In this document: positions 17,925 through 61,187 of the stretch, in pieces
How positions within the stretch are numbered: the stretch's first letter is position 1
Layout of the letters: every line of letters begins with the position of its first letter
Source: a bacterium
GTDB lineage: Bacteria; Orphanbacterota; Orphanbacteria; Orphanbacterales; Orphanbacteraceae
Reading direction: 5' to 3'
DNA: 64,000 nt
Assembly: GCA_025782575.1 (NCBI GenBank)
Contig: JALGYY010000008.1
Location: 44,373-108,372, forward strand
Translations under genes and position numbers: made by a program
The notes under the pieces: generated by a model
The model's input: only the letters and a program-made list of their open reading frames with translations
Database searches by the model: none
Told to the model about the DNA's origin: nothing

Positions 17925-18135
17925 GCAGTCAGATCTGGAGTTTCCCCGTTTTTCAGAAGTTCTTGAGTGACATCCGGTGCGAGGAGTCCGGCGGCTCCGG
18001 TTTGTGACAGAGCAAAACACCTCGACATACTTGATCTACCAAGCATCCCACTCAACCGAACGATCTCTTTACTCCCGAATCATAGCGACCGGTTTCCGGC
18101 TGCCGAATTGGCGAGACGAGGCCGGTGGGCCCCGT

Positions 18136-18207
18136 GAATTCTGGGGACACAATACGCAATTTCCACGCTCGGTACCGGTAGAGATACGTATTGTGTCCCC
18201 AGAATTC
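18136..18207. repeat. REP-like palindrome, copy 1
   Basis: Perfect 21-bp inverted arms (GAATTCTGGGGACACAATACG and its complement) around a 30-base loop. The core TTCTGGGGACACAA also occurs at 43.8 kb and 57.6 kb. Palindromes of this kind (with GGGGACAC) are associated in many genomes with Y1/REP-associated tyrosine transposases (RAYT), but no such gene is in the window. Confidence 0.75.
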
Positions 18208-18281
18208 AGCGGCTCCTCGGGAGGAGGGTCGGCCGGCGTGGAGGAAGGCACCGGTGTGGTAACCCTAGGTCACTGGTGTGA

Positions 18282-43634: not shown

Positions 43635-44061
43635 CGTTCCTCCCTGACTATTCGCTGAATTCCGATCTGTGCAGACTAGGTGAACGGCAGCCGGGCTGTC
43701 AACGGTCTCAGGTCCGGAGTTTTCGCCACTTTTCAGAAGCCCGGCGACGACATCCAGCGGACCACGGGCACATCTTTGAGCTTTGATATTCGCTATTCTG
43801 GGGACACAATACGTAACTCCGCCAAGCGAAGCGGCGATATTACGTATTGTGTCCCCAGAATTCCGTCGGCTTGATCTCTCTCGATCCCTTTCCCGGATTA
43901 TGTAAACCTGACTCTCATTTTGAGAGAGAATTCCAGAACCAATGGAATCTACAACGGGACTTGGGGTAACCATCTTTGAGCTGGCCGCGCATTGTTGACA
44001 GGCCCGTTTCACCTCTCTACGATTCATTTGAATGTCCCACGCCCCTCATCCCGGAGGTCTC
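43635..44061. other. 427-base divergent intergenic region
   Basis: It contains the second GGGGACACAA palindrome and a small CTCTCA/TGAGAG hairpin at about 43.92 kb; promoters for the NSS gene and the SSS operon must lie here but I cannot name them with confidence. No gene seen. Confidence 0.5.
43795..43861. repeat. REP-like palindrome, copy 2
   Basis: Perfect 22-bp arms (ATTCTGGGGACACAATACG..) around a loop that itself folds (CCGC..GCGG). Same core as copies at 18.1 and 57.6 kb; here it lies between two divergently transcribed genes, so it is not simply a terminator. Confidence 0.75.
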
Positions 44062-52603: not shown

Positions 52604-52695
52604 TCTGCTCCTGCCGTTTCCGTGTCGATCACTTCAGTTGGTATAGCTCTTTAAGTGAACTATTTAAAACACTTTCGGTCACTTGAGGCTTTTGG

Positions 52696-52701
52696 TATAC
52701 T
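52696..52701 (+). promoter_or_regulatory. Extended -10 promoter element before choice-of-anchor B gene 1
   Basis: TGGTATACT fits the TGnTATAAT extended -10; the -35 position (TTTCGG) is poor. Leader about 70 bases. Confidence 0.4.
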
Positions 52702-52780
52702 AGCCAGTGATAAGTGCCTCCCCCGGCAGTCTCCCCAGATTAGCCAAGCCTTTATTCTCAAGCAGACGGAGGAATATGCT

Positions 52781-55162
52781 GTGCTGCGTACAATCATGAT
52801 CGGGACCATTCTTGCGGTGCTACTGATTTTACCTGTAGCCGCCGACGCTCAGCTGAACGTGACATTGCTGTCGAACAAAGACGACAAGCCGGTTAACAAC
52901 TATAACGACTGCTGGGGCTATTCGGCCGGCGGCCGCGAATATGCCATCATCGGGTATACAGCCGGAACGCTCTTCTACGACGTGACCGTGCCGACCGCCC
53001 CCGTTCTCGTAGGCGATGTCGTGGGAGTCAACTCCGTCTGGCGTGACATGAAGACGAACGGCACCTACTGCTATATCGTCACCGAGGGTGGCGGCGGCGG
53101 GATGCAGGTGGTCGATCTCAGCTTCCTGCCCGACAGCGTATCGCTCGTCAACAAGGTCGCCGCCTTCACGGCTCATAATATTTACGTCGACACAGGCACG
53201 CAGCGCGCGTACGTCTGCGGAATCGGCAACACGACGCGCATATACGACGTCGGCGCCAACGCCGTTTCCCCCCCTCTCCTCGGCTCGTACAGTGATCTCT
53301 ATATCCACGATCTGTTTGTGCAGGGCGATACGATGTACTGCGGCAACATCAGCAACTCCAAATTCACGATCCTGGATGCCAGAAATGTCGGGGCAATCGA
53401 TACACTGGCGGCTGTAAGCTACGGTCATTCGAGCCACGCCACCTGGCTTCTCGAAGGTGACAACTCCATTCTTCTTACTGCAGACGAGGAGTCCGGCGGC
53501 ATCATCCGTGCCTGGGACATCTCCAACTACGCAAGCATCACCGAGCTCGGCTCCTATGCATCGGGTTCCGGCACATCGGTTCACAATATTTTTTCAATCG
53601 GAGACAACGTCTACTCTTCCTATTACACGGAAGGCCTTCGGATCGCGAACTTCACCGATCCGACGAGTCCTGTCGAGGTCGGGTCCTACGATACGTTCCC
53701 CGGAAGCGGGCTCTTCGACGGTGCCTGGGGATGTTATCCCTTCCTGCCGTCCGGAACGATCATCATCAGCGATGTGGCGACCGGACTCTATCTCCTCGAC
53801 TTCACCGCGCCGGGGGTGATCGCCGGCACCGTATCCGATACGGGCAGCACTCCCGTCGCATTGGCCGACGTTTCGGTTCCATCCGAGCCCTCCAATGCCG
53901 TTACCAACTCGGCCGGTGGTTATGTTCTCACCTCGAGCCCGGGAACACCCAGCGTCATCACATCGGCATTCGGGTTCGTGAGCGACACGACTGCCGTATC
54001 CGTTTCGGCCGGAGTTACGACGACTCATGATGTGGGCCTTGTCCCACTGCCGGGATCATCGATTCTTGGCATCGTGAGCGCTTCGGGAGGGGGCGGAGTA
54101 CTGGAAAACGCCGATGTAACGATCATCGGCGAGGCTCGTTCCGATCTTTCCGATGCCGGCGGTGAGTATCAGCTCGACTTCATTCCGGCCGGTGTTCATC
54201 TGGTAGCGGCTTCGCTGTTCGGATACGACCCCGATACCGTACAGGTGACTGTCGTGGACGGTGTTCCCCAGATCGCCGACTTCTCACTGATCCCCTGGTT
54301 CCTCACATTGCGAATGGAAGACGGCGAGAATCGCGGCTGGACCAGAATAGCGCCGGACGATGACGCGACCACAGGGATCTGGATCCGCCGTGATCCGAAC
54401 GGAACGGGCGGGGGCCAAGTGCAGACTGAAGACGATCACACTCCCGATCCCGGTTTCAAATGCTACGTCACCGGCAACGCAGCCCCTGGCTCCAGCATCG
54501 GTCTGGACGATGTCGATGGGGGCAAGACGACCCTTTTCACCAAGGTCTACGATCTGACCAGCCTGACCAATCCCGAGATTATCTACCATCGGTGGTTCTC
54601 CAACAATGCCGGCGCCAACCCTAACATCGAGCCGTTTGTGGTTCACATATCCAATGATTCGGGGTCGACCTGGGCAACTGTCGAGAGCACAACCGTGAAC
54701 GAGAACTTCTGGAAGGAAATCCGGTTCAAGGTGAGTGATTTCGTGACGCCGACCAGCGAGGTCCAGGTTCGTTTCATCGCCCGTGACAACATCGGCGCGA
54801 TAATCGAGGCGGCTATCGATGACTTCGGTATTCGGGGCGACGTAGTGACAGGGATCGCAGGCAGCGAGGATGTGGTTCCCACAGGTGTGCTCCGGCTCGC
54901 CAAGAACCGTCCGAACCCGTTCAACCCGACAACCACGATTGATTTCACTATCCCAGCAAAGGGGAAGGTCAATCTCTCTATCTATGACCCGGCCGGACGA
55001 CTTGTTCGCACCCTGGTCAAGGGGTCGATGAATGAGGGACAGCATTCGGTGAACTGGACAGGGCTGGACAACAAGAATCACGCGGTCGCCAGCGGCGTCT
55101 ATTTCTATCGTCTCGACACGGGCAAAGACAAAGTAACCAGGAAGCTGACTCTGATCCGCTAG
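52781..55162 (+). CDS. Secreted choice-of-anchor B protein with CarboxypepD-like and FlgD-like domains
   Basis: 793 residues from a GTG with GGAGG at 8 bases; the start gives MLRTIMIGTILAVLLILPVA (signal peptide) and then AQLNVTLLSNKDD. Residues about 20-350 are LVIVD-type repeats (VWRDMKTNGTYCYIVTEGG, AFTAHNIYVDTGTQRAYVCG, IISDVATGLYLLDF) of the choice-of-anchor B family. Two carboxypeptidase-regulatory-like domains follow (GVIAGTVSDTGSTPVALADV, SSILGIVSASGGGGVLENAD), then a beta region containing a DTG-type lectin/MAM-like block, and a FlgD-like C-terminus (PNPFNPTTTIDFTIPAKGK, GRLVRTLVKGSMNEGQH, SGVYFYRLDTGKDKVTRK). Likely surface or extracellular; enzymatic role not visible. Confidence 0.85.
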   Translation: MLRTIMIGTILAVLLILPVAADAQLNVTLLSNKDDKPVNNYNDCWGYSAGGREYAIIGYTAGTLFYDVTVPTAPVLVGDVVGVNSVWRDMKTNGTYCYIVTEGGGGGMQVVDLSFLPDSVSLVNKVAAFTAHNIYVDTGTQRAYVCGIGNTTRIYDVGANAVSPPLLGSYSDLYIHDLFVQGDTMYCGNISNSKFTILDARNVGAIDTLAAVSYGHSSHATWLLEGDNSILLTADEESGGIIRAWDISNYASITELGSYASGSGTSVHNIFSIGDNVYSSYYTEGLRIANFTDPTSPVEVGSYDTFPGSGLFDGAWGCYPFLPSGTIIISDVATGLYLLDFTAPGVIAGTVSDTGSTPVALADVSVPSEPSNAVTNSAGGYVLTSSPGTPSVITSAFGFVSDTTAVSVSAGVTTTHDVGLVPLPGSSILGIVSASGGGGVLENADVTIIGEARSDLSDAGGEYQLDFIPAGVHLVAASLFGYDPDTVQVTVVDGVPQIADFSLIPWFLTLRMEDGENRGWTRIAPDDDATTGIWIRRDPNGTGGGQVQTEDDHTPDPGFKCYVTGNAAPGSSIGLDDVDGGKTTLFTKVYDLTSLTNPEIIYHRWFSNNAGANPNIEPFVVHISNDSGSTWATVESTTVNENFWKEIRFKVSDFVTPTSEVQVRFIARDNIGAIIEAAIDDFGIRGDVVTGIAGSEDVVPTGVLRLAKNRPNPFNPTTTIDFTIPAKGKVNLSIYDPAGRLVRTLVKGSMNEGQHSVNWTGLDNKNHAVASGVYFYRLDTGKDKVTRKLTLIR

Positions 55163-55195
55163 ATTCAGTCTGTTCCATAGGTGGCTGAGGGAATT

Positions 55196-55228
55196 CCCGG
55201 TCCGGCGACCAACCGGATCGGGATTTTC
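55196..55228 (+). terminator. Terminator after choice-of-anchor B gene 1
   Basis: CCCGGTCCGG / CCGGATCGGG stem (one G-T pair), 7-base loop, then ATTTTCTC. Confidence 0.75.
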
Positions 55229-55275
55229 TCTCCCCGGAATTTCAGACCAAACGAGAAATGATTCAGGAGGCTGCC

Positions 55276-56661
55276 GTGTATCGTGAATTACTACGTATGA
55301 TCGTTGCTCTCGGCGCGCTTGCGCTTGTCGCCGGTTCGTCGATTGCCGCCCAGGACAGTGTCAGTTGTAACATGACCCTTCTTTCCCAAACTGATACGAG
55401 AACTGAATCCTACAACGATTGCTGGGGATACACGGCCCCCAACGGGGATGAATACGCAATCATCGGGTACAAAACGGGAACGGTGTTCTATAACGTCACC
55501 GACCCCCAGGTACCGGTGGAAGTCGGGTTTATCTCGGGTCCTAACTCCACCTGGCGGGATATCAAGACCTATCAGAACTATTGCTATATCGGAACGGAAG
55601 GGAGTGGGGGCGGAACAGGGATGCAGATTGTCGACCTCTCCGACCCTGAGAACCCGGTTCGCGTGAATACGTACAATGCGACCTTTACCACATCGCACAA
55701 CCTTTACATCGATACGGCTGCGGGGCGCTGCTACGTTGTCGGCGCGAGTGGCGGCATGCATATTCTCGACATCGCGACCGATCCGGTAAACCCGATCTGG
55801 CTCGGCTCATGGGGTAACTTCTACATTCATGACCTTTACGTCGAGAACGACACCGCCTATGTGGGAAACATTTCCGATCAGTCGTTCCGCGTACTTGATG
55901 TATCGAACCCGGCGAATATCCAGATACTGATCGCCCACACTTACGCGTCCGCCTCTACGCACAACTGCTGGATCCATCCGGACCACAATTTCCTCCTTAC
56001 GAGTGACGAAGCGGGGCGCGGTCACATTCGTTGCTGGGACATTTCGGACCCGCAGAACGTGACGGAGGTTTCCGATTACAAGAAACCGGGCTTCTTTGTC
56101 TCGGCTCACAATGTGATGATGAAGGGGGCTGTCGCTTATATTTCCTACTACACCGAAGGGACGAGGGTCGTCGACTTTTCCGATCCCTTCAACCCGGTGG
56201 AACTTGGTTTCTACGACACCTATACTGGTGGCGGCGGCCCGTTTGCCGGGAACTGGGGCGTGTACCCATTTCTCCCGTCCGGGACGATCGTCTCGAGCGA
56301 TATGGCAAGCGGTCTATTCCTGACTCGCTATGACGATCCTATCGTGACGGACGTCACTTCCGGCAATCCCACGATGGTTCTGCCGGTTGCCAGGCTGATG
56401 CCGAACGTCCCGAATCCGTTCAATCCGGCCACGCGGATCGCCTACCAGCTACCTGTGACCGGACAGGTCGATCTCTCGATCTATGATCCGGCCGGTCGCC
56501 TGGTACGGACAATGGTCTCCGGCGCGCAAGAGGCCGGATCGCACACCATCACCTGGAACGGCCGGGATGGGAACGGAGCGCCCGCGTCAAGCGGCGTCTA
56601 CTTCTACCGTCTGAACACGGATGACACCGCCATCTCCCGCAAGCTCCATCTCGTCCGCTGA
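55276..56661 (+). CDS. Secreted choice-of-anchor B protein, short paralog
   Basis: 461 residues from GTG with AGGAGG five bases upstream (MYRELLRMIVALGALALVAG signal). LVIVD-like repeats: YNDCWGYTAPNGDEYAIIGY, NSTWRDIKTYQNYCYIGTEG, FTTSHNLYIDTAAGRCYVVG, SASTHNCWIHPDHNFLLTSD and FAGNWGVYPFLPSGTIVSSD; then the FlgD-like C-terminus PNPFNPATRIAYQLPVTGQ, DPAGRLVRTMVSGAQEAGSH. It lacks the two internal domains of the upstream paralog and has its own terminator, so it is probably its own transcription unit. Function unknown; secreted. Confidence 0.85.
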   Translation: MYRELLRMIVALGALALVAGSSIAAQDSVSCNMTLLSQTDTRTESYNDCWGYTAPNGDEYAIIGYKTGTVFYNVTDPQVPVEVGFISGPNSTWRDIKTYQNYCYIGTEGSGGGTGMQIVDLSDPENPVRVNTYNATFTTSHNLYIDTAAGRCYVVGASGGMHILDIATDPVNPIWLGSWGNFYIHDLYVENDTAYVGNISDQSFRVLDVSNPANIQILIAHTYASASTHNCWIHPDHNFLLTSDEAGRGHIRCWDISDPQNVTEVSDYKKPGFFVSAHNVMMKGAVAYISYYTEGTRVVDFSDPFNPVELGFYDTYTGGGGPFAGNWGVYPFLPSGTIVSSDMASGLFLTRYDDPIVTDVTSGNPTMVLPVARLMPNVPNPFNPATRIAYQLPVTGQVDLSIYDPAGRLVRTMVSGAQEAGSHTITWNGRDGNGAPASSGVYFYRLNTDDTAISRKLHLVR

Positions 56662-57630: not shown

Positions 57631-57686
57631 CTGGAGTTCTGGGGACACAACCGGCGGAGTTAAGTATTGTGTCCCCAGAACTCCAG
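57631..57686. repeat. REP-like palindrome, copy 3
   Basis: Perfect 20-bp arms CTGGAGTTCTGGGGACACAA and complement, loop 16 bases. Same core as the other two copies. Between two convergent genes. Confidence 0.75.
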
Positions 57687-57701: not shown

Positions 57702-58439
57702 CTACGATGTGAGGTCGGTGATCGTGACGGTACCGTTGGAGAGATCCTCTTCAAGGCGGCGCATTCGCTCCGGCGTTCCGAGGTCGATCCAGTAGGCGTC
57801 GTCAACAAAATAGGCGACAACGCTCTCCCCCACCCTCACCATTTCCAGATATGATTCCACGATCGAAAAGGAGCCCGTTCCGGGGAGTCGTCCGGCAACC
57901 CCTGGGGCGAGTAGCTGAATCCCACTGAATCCGGCAGGCGTTACTTCGCCGACCGGTTCTCGTACCAGTTGATCGCCGAATCGTCCGCAGAGCTCGCCGG
58001 AACTGTCGATCGCCAATGGGCGGGAAGTCGAACGGTTCTGCACGGCGATCACGGCAACCGCTCCCGACTTTTCGCGATACTCGCGTAGCGCATCCAGCGA
58101 GATAGTCGACAGGACATCCACGTTGTGAACGAGTACCTCTTCCTGATCACCGAGCAGGTCGGCGGCATTACGAACTCCCCCACCCGTTCCCAGGATCTCT
58201 TTCTCGATGATCAGAGTCGGCTCCTGGTCGCCGGTCGGGCGTTCTGCCAGATATTGTTCAACCTGTTCGGCAAGGTAATGAGCGTTCACGACGATCGAAC
58301 CATCACATGGGTGATTCATCTTGGCGAGTGCGAGCTTGAGAAGAGGCCGCCCCCCCGCCTCGATCAAAGCTTTCGGTATTGATTCGGTCAACGGAAGCAG
58401 GCGGGTCCCCATGCCGGCCGCAAGAATCATCCCTCTCAA
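57702..58439 (-). CDS. MurU-like sugar-1-phosphate nucleotidyltransferase
   Basis: 245 residues; TTG start overlaps the RapZ-like stop by 4 bases, preceded by GGAG at 5 bases. RGMILAAGMGTRLLPLTESI followed by PKALIEAGGRPLL (donor loop), LVHNVDVLSTISLDA (metal Asp), and PAGFSGIQLLAPGV; no beta-helix tail. In Pseudomonas MurU converts MurNAc-1-phosphate to UDP-MurNAc after AmgK has phosphorylated the sugar, and the two genes are adjacent; here the kinase gene is in the same operon, which supports the same role. The specificity is inferred from the neighbour, not proved. Confidence 0.82.
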   Translation of the reverse strand: MRGMILAAGMGTRLLPLTESIPKALIEAGGRPLLKLALAKMNHPCDGSIVVNAHYLAEQVEQYLAERPTGDQEPTLIIEKEILGTGGGVRNAADLLGDQEEVLVHNVDVLSTISLDALREYREKSGAVAVIAVQNRSTSRPLAIDSSGELCGRFGDQLVREPVGEVTPAGFSGIQLLAPGVAGRLPGTGSFSIVESYLEMVRVGESVVAYFVDDAYWIDLGTPERMRRLEEDLSNGTVTITDLTS

Positions 58440-58843
58440 GAAGACTCCTCACCCAGATCGTTGTGATTCAGCCGGACCGTGTGGCCCCGCTCGGTCAGAT
58501 GATTGAAGGTCCGTTCGGCAAAGTAGACTGAGCGATGCTGCCCCCCCGTACAACCGAACGCCACCGTGATGTCCGTGAACCCGCGCTCCCGGAACGCTTC
58601 CACCGCGGAGTCGACAATGCTCCGGAGGTGCACCCAGAAAGTGCCGATCTCCGGCCGGGCCTCCAGAAATGCTTTCACTCGGATGTCACGGCCATCCAGT
58701 TCCTTGTAAGCTTCTTCCCTCCCGGGGTTCGGCAGAAACCGGCAATCAAACACAAAGCCGCCACCGTGGCCGGTTTCATCTTTCGGCATTCCCGATTTGT
58801 GATAAGAAAAGCTGAACACATGTACCATTAAGCGTTTATTCAT
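58436..58843 (-). CDS. Stand-alone RapZ C-terminal domain protein (amino-sugar sensor-like)
   Basis: 135 residues. VHVFSFSYHKSGMPKDETG, GGFVFDCRFLPNPGREEAYK, VDSAVEAFRERGFTDITVAF and GCTGGQHRSVYFAERTFNHL follow the C-terminal half of RapZ (RNase adapter, which binds glucosamine-6-phosphate and the sRNA GlmZ) but the N-terminal P-loop kinase-like half is absent. Start ATG with GAGG at 9 bases, overlapping the kinase stop by 8 bases. In this operon it may sense an amino sugar from cell-wall turnover (inference). Confidence 0.85.
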   Translation of the reverse strand: MNKRLMVHVFSFSYHKSGMPKDETGHGGGFVFDCRFLPNPGREEAYKELDGRDIRVKAFLEARPEIGTFWVHLRSIVDSAVEAFRERGFTDITVAFGCTGGQHRSVYFAERTFNHLTERGHTVRLNHNDLGEESS

Positions 58844-59954
58844 TGGTCGGCACCTCAACATAGCGATCGGGTGAATCGACGATACGACTCAGAAGGGATC
58901 CAAGATAGGAAAAACGCGCCGACAGGGGATAACGTTCCATCAATGCCCCCAGATTCTGAATCCCGAACGGCACACGCTCGAGAAACTGCTCTTTCCCCTT
59001 GTTGACACCCAGGTTGGCGTAGGCGCCGAGAGCCTGAAGAATTCGAATGAGCGCAAAACCGGGAAAGTGCGCCAGAAATTGATCCCGGTCGATCGCTTGA
59101 ATGGACTCAGCCTGATCCAAATAGGTAGCGATCAAATCTTCCCGCTGATCGTCGTTCAGGCCGGACTTCCCTGCGTAGAGAAGTGCGGCGAGATCATAGG
59201 CAAGCGGGCCTCGACGCCCCGACTGGTAGTCGATGAACCAGGGCTCTCCCTTCACCACCATGATATTCCTCGTCTGGAAATCCCGATACAGTAAGAAGTC
59301 GTCAGGCTCCTCCATGAGGAATTTGACGAGCGATTGGAAATCGGCGGCCAGCAGATCCCGGTCGAGTTTCTCGCGATAGAGAAGACCCAGAAAGTGAGTT
59401 TCGAAGTAACGGAGATCATGCTCCATCGTCTTGGGTCCGAAGCGATCATCCTGATAGCAGAGCGAATAATCGATTCCCTTGTGTCCCTCAATCTGAATGC
59501 GGGGAAGCCAGCTGACTGCTTTTCGATAAACGGAAAGTGCGGCGTCGCCCGGGGATGAGTTTGGCGATTCGGTCGCCCCGCTCCTCCTGTCGGTGTTGTC
59601 TTGGTTGTTCTTCGCGATAAGAGAGGCGAGGGAGACATCACCCAGATCAGTCTCCAGATAGACTCCTTCGCTTTCATCGGTTGCCAGAATCTCCGGCACC
59701 GGCAGGCCGATTGAGTGAAAGTGCCTGGAGAACCCGATGAACGCGGCGTTCTCCCTTTGGTCATCGTGGGCAATACCGATAACAGTCCGTTTACCGTCCC
59801 CGAGCCGGAAGACCAGGCGATCGGATCCTTCAGCGCGAATCGGCGTGATCTGTTCCGGCGGGACGCCGAAGGTCTTCTCGTAGAGTGATTTCAGTTTCGC
59901 GTTCAGTGGGCTGTCCTCCCCGCGACGATTGGTGCCGGCAGGCCTACTGTACAT
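58836..59954 (-). CDS. AmgK-like anomeric amino-sugar kinase (aminoglycoside phosphotransferase fold)
   Basis: About 372 residues. The APH-type kinase: SDRLVFRLGDGKRTVIGIAH (P-loop region), FSRHFHSIGLPVPEILATDE, catalytic loop LLYRDFQTRNIMVVKGEPWF (HRDFxxxN with Tyr in place of His) and IDYQSGRRGPLAYDLAALLY (DFG-like, 'FIDYQ'); this last pair is typical of AmgK, which phosphorylates MurNAc and GlcNAc at C1. First gene of the coupled trio. The ATG is chosen, but a CTG 48 bases inside, preceded by GGGGAGG at 8 bases, is an appealing alternative start. Confidence 0.83.
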   Translation of the reverse strand: MYSRPAGTNRRGEDSPLNAKLKSLYEKTFGVPPEQITPIRAEGSDRLVFRLGDGKRTVIGIAHDDQRENAAFIGFSRHFHSIGLPVPEILATDESEGVYLETDLGDVSLASLIAKNNQDNTDRRSGATESPNSSPGDAALSVYRKAVSWLPRIQIEGHKGIDYSLCYQDDRFGPKTMEHDLRYFETHFLGLLYREKLDRDLLAADFQSLVKFLMEEPDDFLLYRDFQTRNIMVVKGEPWFIDYQSGRRGPLAYDLAALLYAGKSGLNDDQREDLIATYLDQAESIQAIDRDQFLAHFPGFALIRILQALGAYANLGVNKGKEQFLERVPFGIQNLGALMERYPLSARFSYLGSLLSRIVDSPDRYVEVPTNE

Positions 59955-60135
59955 TGGATGATCGCCCCGAAACAAGTCGGAGAAGCTGCTCGAAGCCCGA
60001 ATGCAGCGCTTCAGGCTACTGATGACAGGACGCGCCCCTTGCCAGTGGTTCCAACATGAAGTAGGGTGGTCCTGTCCGCCCCGGCCCCACGGGTTACCTC
60101 CGTTTTGGGGAGAACCATTGACCAATTCACATGCC

Positions 60136-61187
60136 GTGACGGCCATACTCACAACTGAGCTTCGAGTTCCCGAATTGCTCCGGGAGGGTGGGGAGAGATA
60201 TGCCGCCAACCGCTTACCCTACTCCGGCAAACCCAAGCTGCTCGATCAGGTGAGAAGCGCGATCCGGTCCCGGCATTACAGTCAGAGCACTGAGAAGACC
60301 TACGTCCACTGGATCCGGCGGTTCATTCTGTTCCATGGGAAATGCCATCCAATCGACATGGGCGAGGCGGAGGTCAGTCGTTTTCTGAATCACCTCGCGG
60401 AAGAACGTCGGGTGAGTGCATCCACGCAGAATCAGGCGCTCAGCGCCATCCTCTTTCTCTATCGCCACGTTCTTGGGCGGGAACTCGAGTGGCTGGATGA
60501 TCTCGTTCGGGCAAAGCCCTCCGAGCGCGTCCGGGTCGTACTCACACGGGAGGAAGTGCGCGCCCTGCTCCGCCAGATGAGCGGCACCCCACGGATGATG
60601 GCATACTTGTTGTATGGTGCCGGCCTCAGGCTCATGGAATGCGTCCGCCTGCGAGTGAAAGATGTCGATTTCGCCCGGCACGAAATCACGGTTCGCCAGG
60701 GGAAGGGGCGCAAAGACAGGCGGACCATGCTGCCTGACAGGGTCCGCCGAGTGCTCCGAGACCATTTGGCAGAGGTCAGGCGGCAGCACGAGGCCGACCT
60801 GAAGCTAAACGCCGGTTCTGTCGAACTGCCCTACGCCATCGGCCGAAAGTACCCGAATGCACATCAGGAATGGGGCTGGCAGTGGGTCTTTCCTGCCACA
60901 AGGATCTACCACGACCGTGAAACCGGACAACACCGCCGCCATCACTTGCATCAGTCTGTTCTTCAAAAGGCGATCAAGCGGGCCGTCAGTGAGGCGGGAA
61001 TCGTGAAACCCGCGACCAGTCATATACCCTGCGCCACTCCTTCGCCACCCACCTTCTCGAAGGGGGATACGACATCAGGACAGTCCAGGAACTTCTAGGC
61101 CATCAGGATGTCAAGACCACCATGATCTATACCCACGTACTGAACCGGGGAGGGCGGGGAGTAAGAAGTCCTGTTGACATGGAGTGA
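60136..61187 (+). pseudogene. Integron integrase (IntI-type tyrosine recombinase), frameshifted
   Basis: The frame holds the N-terminal region RSAIRSRHYSQSTEKTYVHW, the active Arg (YLLYGAGLRLMECVRLRVKD), the Lys region (RQGKGRKDRRTML) and the additional IntI-specific patch (PNAHQEWGWQWVFPATRIY). At about 61022-61025 an extra AT (CATATACC for CATACC) shifts the frame and ends the protein early. Removing two bases restores [40 protein letters not shown] and [11 protein letters not shown] to a stop at 61187, that is, the second Arg (HxLRH), His and the nucleophile Tyr. So the sequence as given lacks the catalytic Tyr; either a pseudogene, a slippage site or a sequencing error. The N-terminal start is not settled (GTG 60136, TTG 60175 are candidates). 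Confidence 0.9.

Follow-up and report, generated by a model that had tools for sequence, protein, structure and literature searches.

We describe a bacterial operon in which an AmgK-like sugar kinase, a stand-alone C-terminal domain of RapZ (RapZ_C) and a MurU-like nucleotidyltransferase are tightly coupled. This operon is a variant form of the known AmgK/MurU recycling pathway that carries RapZ_C. In the best explanation taken as a whole, to which we give a probability of about 0.4, RapZ_C would be a MurNAc-6-phosphate (MurNAc-6P) phosphatase feeding AmgK in cis. The operon would make UDP-MurNAc from recycled wall sugar, bypassing MurA and MurB. AnmK, encoded elsewhere in the genome, would convert anhydro-MurNAc into MurNAc-6P, RapZ_C would remove the 6-phosphate by means of the invariant cysteine of its C-x5-R-S loop, in MupP's stead, the AmgK-like kinase would then place a phosphate on C1 of MurNAc, and UMP would be attached by the MurU-like enzyme. 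Tight coupling, or fusion in most relatives, would hold phosphatase and kinase together. Sequence and context make the kinase and MurU pair and its peptidoglycan-recycling setting very probable. That RapZ_C handles MurNAc-6P in cis is rather probable, and that it does so as a phosphatase is plausible but tentative.

The three open reading frames lie on the minus strand of the window, i.e. the whole stretch of 64,000 nucleotides that was analysed. The kinase (APH fold, 372 aa; PF01636, 4.6e-13) occupies positions 58836..59954, with an ATG at 59954 and a TAA ending at 58836. RapZ_C (135 aa; PF22740, 1.8e-34) extends over 58436..58843 from an ATG at 58843, and the two ORFs share 8 nt (58836..58843); from an alternative upstream ATG at 58861, this overlap would be 26 nt. 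The MurU-like sugar-1-phosphate nucleotidyltransferase (245 aa; PF00483, 6.2e-19) is located at 57702..58439. Its start is a TTG at 58439, preceded by GGTGAGGAG, and its ORF overlaps that of RapZ_C by 4 nt (TTGA, 58436..58439). The coupled operon proposed by the sequence-only reading, with overlaps of 8 and 4 bases, is confirmed by these coordinates, but the span then given (58436-59954) covers the kinase and RapZ_C and leaves the MurU-like gene (58439 to 57702) outside. An Rfam search around the operon gave no match, and a scan for promoters and terminators at the operon revealed nothing exceeding chance.

On one side of the operon, a tyrosine integrase (60001-61098, plus strand) with an integron-integrase-like N-terminal domain (PF13495 and PF00589) starts 47 bases from the start of the kinase, in divergent orientation; the C-terminus of this integrase looks frameshifted. 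On the other side, a class I methyltransferase (PF08242; 56816-57610, plus strand) is convergent to murU, and a homologous methyltransferase gene is found at the same place in the close relative G002 (locus L003). Two adjacent homologous proteins with a common FlgD-like C-terminal sorting region are encoded at 52655-56661, and their ends in the ORF list read GVYFYRL...KLTLIR and KLHLVR. A perfect 20-bp palindrome, consisting of TTGTGTCCCCAGAACTCCAG and its complement, sits between murU and the methyltransferase (57631..57686, directly 3' of murU). It is a dispersed genome repeat, with further copies in the window at 18135-18208 and 43792-43864, and its core half-sites occur 46 times in the genome versus 0 in the reversed control. 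As a Y1 (IS200-like) transposase was found by one repeat pair (L171), the repeat resembles a REP element, with the transposase as its RAYT.

The best NCBIfam match of the window kinase is the AmgK equivalog model NF045759, with 66.2 bits, below the curated cut-off of 550; we therefore name it AmgK-like and not AmgK. Across the kinases, NCBIfam ranks the two AmgK models first. The catalytic Asp and Asn and the metal Asp of the APH fold are present and invariant: D225 and N230 in the catalytic segment D225-F-Q-T-R-N230 (59265..59282, minus strand), itself invariant in alignments A1 and A5, and the metal-binding D242 (59229-59231, minus strand), which follows this segment. When the kinase family profile was compared with the PDB, the sole match was 3csv (5.5e-29), whose segments RDFHAQN and IDFQ align with the catalytic and metal segments; the window kinase has YRDFQ versus HRDFH in 3csv. 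A search for viral relatives of the kinase confirmed none. In the window, as in most relatives, the kinase gene is a neighbour of the murU-like gene. For the window transferase, the MurU and mannose-1-phosphate guanylyltransferase models are the best in NCBIfam, with nearly equal scores, and the MurU model NF045761 gives 97.5 bits, below its curated cut-off of 250. None of the proteins of the window operon reaches an NCBIfam equivalog cut-off. With the profile of the whole MurU-like family, the first ranks in the PDB go to MurU structures (4y7t, 2e-41; 8hhd, 1.3e-37), above mannose-1-phosphate and heptose enzymes.

RapZ_C had been described from the letters as lacking the N-terminal kinase-like half of RapZ, and this holds: PF22740 covers the whole domain (119 bits, gathering cut-off 27), the P-loop half is absent, and the full-length RapZ model NF003828 matches only at its positions 157-278 (105.7 bits versus a cut-off of 244). 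The predicted structure (pLDDT 94) has a Z-score of about 20 to the C-terminal domain (CTD) of E. coli RapZ, and a fused kinase-RapZ_C homologue was also predicted with confidence (pLDDT 92, pTM 0.78). In the fold comparison, RapZ comes first, PFK is next but weak, and there is no PTP among the matches listed. The phosphate-binding loop C98-T-G-G-Q-H-R104-S105 (58529..58552, minus strand, like the motifs below) fits both Cx5R-S and CxxGxxR[ST], with the Cys closing a strand and the Arg opening a helix. In 65 aligned RapZ_C sequences, C98, T99, G101, H103, R104 and S105 never vary, and the C-T-G-G-x-H-R-S loop is also invariant in 12 out of 12 full-length RapZ. We favour the phosphatase reading because this loop fits the Cys-x5-Arg-Ser phosphatase signature. 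A paper on Xanthomonas HpaP, cited beside the RapZ homologue YvcJ, reportedly names both NTPase and phosphatase activity in its title. For YvcJ of B. subtilis, NTPase and phosphatase activities have been reported, in whichever of its domains the latter may reside (PMC7525490). In E. coli RapZ, the loop forms, with H190, a sulphate/malonate site (PMC5737377), and C247A and C247S each inactivate the protein, for which Islam et al. suggest a catalytic -SH (PMC9841335).

The ligand pocket has diverged in the kinase-linked domains. From the E. coli GlcN6P pocket, the window RapZ_C keeps T248, G249, H252 and R253, while H190 is replaced by Gly (4/5 kept). Compared with full-length RapZ, the kinase-linked RapZ_C display a fixed change from NPHW to NPGR, which corresponds in the window to N39-P-G-R42 (58718..58729) in place of E. 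coli N188-P-H190-W191. They also carry an insert of about five residues, containing G-[HN]-G-G, that is absent from full-length RapZ; in the window, G25-H-G-G-G29 (58757..58771), in the loop before FVFDCR, is part of it. Judging from these residues, the Arg that replaces the aromatic residue beside the new Gly could accommodate the lactyl carboxylate of MurNAc. The basic RNA-binding tail (K270 and K281-K283 of E. coli) is gone, and the window protein ends with HNDLGEESS.

We then investigated the spread of this arrangement by searching GTDB genomes with the kinase alone, which gave more than 500 relatives, the best 80 of which were kept as loci. In these best 80, RapZ_C directly follows the kinase each time (80/80), a MurU-like gene is found downstream in 77, and kinase and RapZ_C form one protein in 71 loci and two in 9. 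The loci belong to Elusimicrobia, Acidobacteria, Bacteroidota, Ignavibacteria, Calditrichota, KSB1, Latescibacterota, Gemmatimonadetes, Verrucomicrobia, NC10 and others, and ten or more bacterial phyla have the kinase/RapZ_C arrangement. The sequence-only reading had suggested looking for a conserved neighbourhood in FCB genomes; it is present there, and Elusimicrobia, Acidobacteria, Verrucomicrobia and NC10 show that it extends beyond this group. The idea of a functional or physical unit is likewise supported, since most relatives make kinase and RapZ_C as a single protein. We found no description of an AmgK-RapZ fusion in the open-access literature, which is only part of the whole.

As the 80 loci are biased towards near relatives, we sampled Bacteroidota without such bias. 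RapZ_C is present in 24 of 198 genomes, as 20 fusion-sized frames and 4 short ones, with no full-length RapZ. All 24 belong to the set of 25 genomes that have the strong class of kinase; the single exception (G045) is devoid of both RapZ_C and AnmK. In one of the 24 (G216), the kinase is encoded on one contig and RapZ_C on another. Labilibaculum and Plebeiobacterium are culturable Bacteroidota with the fusion. The genome of the window (4.88 Mb, 49 contigs) has one RapZ_C. Six of the seven genomes analysed from its phylum possess the domain, always with the kinase before and a MurU-like gene after. Among the relatives, locus L013 belongs to Candidatus Eisenbacteria, and the close relative G002 has kinase and RapZ_C in one reading frame. 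In the kinase tree, which was made quickly and in which the placement of long branches is unsure, the fused or split state changed at least four times, and the split state of the window belongs to a clade that branches from within the fused proteins; it is a local variant. We also considered that RapZ_C might simply stand in for full-length RapZ, which is ruled out as 11 out of 30 genomes carry both the fusion and full-length RapZ; the two thus do different jobs.

The genomic context concerns peptidoglycan recycling. The operon adjoins MurQ and MurA at the acidobacterial loci L080 and L089, and MurQ together with a GH3/PBP4B-like gene at L090 and L091 of Bacteroidota. Together with MurU as nearest solved relative, these neighbours support the AmgK/MurU-type MurNAc recycling that had been proposed from the sequence. 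The genome of the window encodes AnmK (3.2e-86) in a coupled cluster of sodium:solute symporter, AnmK, SpoIID and GH3 beta-N-acetylhexosaminidase (L172, G000:C46:186000-196000), which is likely an anhydro-MurNAc uptake and recycling operon. The MurQ model gave only weak SIS-domain matches in this genome. With MurNAc-6P made by AnmK and no etherase, the phosphate must go before AmgK can act. The six Eisenbacteria with the operon show the same pattern (AnmK in 5/6, MurQ in 0/6), so that MurNAc-6P needs a phosphatase. In Pseudomonas, the 6-phosphate of MurNAc-6P is removed by MupP (PMC5371407, PMC5371409). Here, the best match to the NCBIfam MupP model reaches 59.8 bits for a cut-off of 359, in a search in which, at 1e-30, the controls, even Caulobacter, gave no match. 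Among 36 operon genomes, AnmK was found above the Pfam cut-off in 29 and full MurQ in 17.

Among the Bacteroidota genomes with AmgK, AnmK is present in 17 of 24 with RapZ_C versus 0 of 43 without, a contrast that goes back to just one or two events in evolution and is therefore overstated by the Fisher test (1e-10). The 42 genomes with a weaker kinase and no RapZ_C look like one class (Chlorobia), as assigned from one neighbouring gene and even sampling. Five loci of this Chlorobia-like class without AnmK (L158-L162) carry an AmgK-like kinase and a MurU-like enzyme, and a NamZ exo-muramidase was read downstream in L160 and L161. Free MurNAc released by NamZ would need no phosphatase.

The amino-sugar-responsive control that was first suggested for this operon accounts for the invariant Cys and the missing pathway step no better than an enzymatic role of RapZ_C does. 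Several observations do count against a phosphatase: the RapZ-CTD of E. coli is known as a binder of GlcN6P and an adaptor for sRNA rather than as an enzyme, H190 of the pocket is a Gly in the window, 7 of the 24 Bacteroidota with RapZ_C have no detectable AnmK, 17 of the 36 operon genomes have MurQ, and HAD phosphatases are present in the genome of the window. A serious possibility, if somewhat short of even odds and close to the phosphatase in probability, is a regulatory domain: RapZ_C would be an allosteric sensor of GlcN6P, GlcNAc-6P or MurNAc-6P that switches AmgK on or off and sets the balance between recycling and synthesis from scratch, while the 6-phosphate would be removed by a HAD phosphatase of its own. 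E. coli RapZ-CTD binds GlcN6P at a site reported as conserved among RapZ homologues (PMC7073468), YvcJ binds UDP-GlcNAc (PMC7525490), and the window RapZ_C retains the four pocket residues listed above. PGP-type (phosphoglycolate-type) HAD phosphatases occur in all Eisenbacteria searched, and many operon genomes also have MurQ. However, a Cys need not be invariant for binding alone, and E. coli RapZ loses its activity in the C247S mutant. Moreover, the loss of H190 and the new NPGR/GHGGG pocket indicate that the ligand probably differs from GlcN6P, and no MupP orthologue was recognised, although the same search was silent in control genomes.

It is improbable that RapZ_C serves chiefly for dimerisation or as a scaffold that holds AmgK, and perhaps MurU, in one complex, with the phosphate loop as a relic or a minor stability aid. 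RapZ-CTD does form dimers in crystals (PMC5737377), and fission and fusion recurred while the genes stayed adjacent, but such a role leaves unexplained both the invariance of C-T-G-G-x-H-R-S across phyla and the 24/25 association without drift of the pocket. Activity of the kinase and transferase on another sugar (e.g. GlcNAc, mannose or heptose phosphate), outside MurNAc recycling, would accommodate the nearly equal MurU and mannose-1-phosphate scores and the missed equivalog cut-offs, but is likewise improbable given MurU as best solved relative of the whole family, the MurQ, MurA and GH3/PBP4B neighbours and AnmK in 29 of 36 genomes.

We compared the operon with known systems. As in the Pseudomonas-type MurU pathway (AnmK-MupP-AmgK-MurU), an AmgK-like kinase adjoins a MurU-like uridylyltransferase, in a genome with AnmK and without MurQ; unlike in that pathway, RapZ_C is coupled to the kinase in the window and fused to it in relatives, and the kinase and MurU scores are far below the NCBIfam equivalog cut-offs. 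The Chlorobia-like AmgK/MurU-NamZ set has the same two enzymes but neither RapZ_C nor AnmK, and its neighbour NamZ would supply free MurNAc. RapZ_C shares with E. coli RapZ, an RNase adaptor and GlcN6P sensor, the C-terminal fold and the CTGGxHRS phosphate loop, but not the N-terminal P-loop half or the basic RNA-binding tail; it differs further by the change of H190-W191 to G-R, the GHGGG insert and the linkage to an APH kinase. MupP, a HAD MurNAc-6P phosphatase, resembles RapZ_C in the proposed reaction and place in the pathway, whereas the sequences are unrelated and the aspartate-based HAD chemistry contrasts with the cysteine-based loop proposed here. Finally, the C-x-x-G-x-x-R-S loop between strand and helix recalls the Cys-x5-Arg phosphatases of the PTP superfamily; no overall match to their fold appeared among the matches listed, and the phosphatase activity of RapZ_C is putative.

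By the MurU route, which has been described mainly in proteobacteria and in Tannerella, bacteria can do without MurA, the target of fosfomycin. In a form carrying RapZ_C, a MurU-type route appears here across many phyla. This arrangement bears on which enzyme takes the 6-phosphate off MurNAc where MupP is not recognised, and on the role of RapZ-type domains, with their essential cysteine, outside Enterobacteriaceae. In a broader and more doubtful generalisation, RapZ C-terminal domains would be a family of cysteine-dependent sugar-phosphate phosphatases. In ten phyla or more, the domain fused to AmgK would be the MurNAc-6P phosphatase that the pathway lacks, and E. coli RapZ would be a derived form that came to bind RNA while its catalytic Cys stayed essential.
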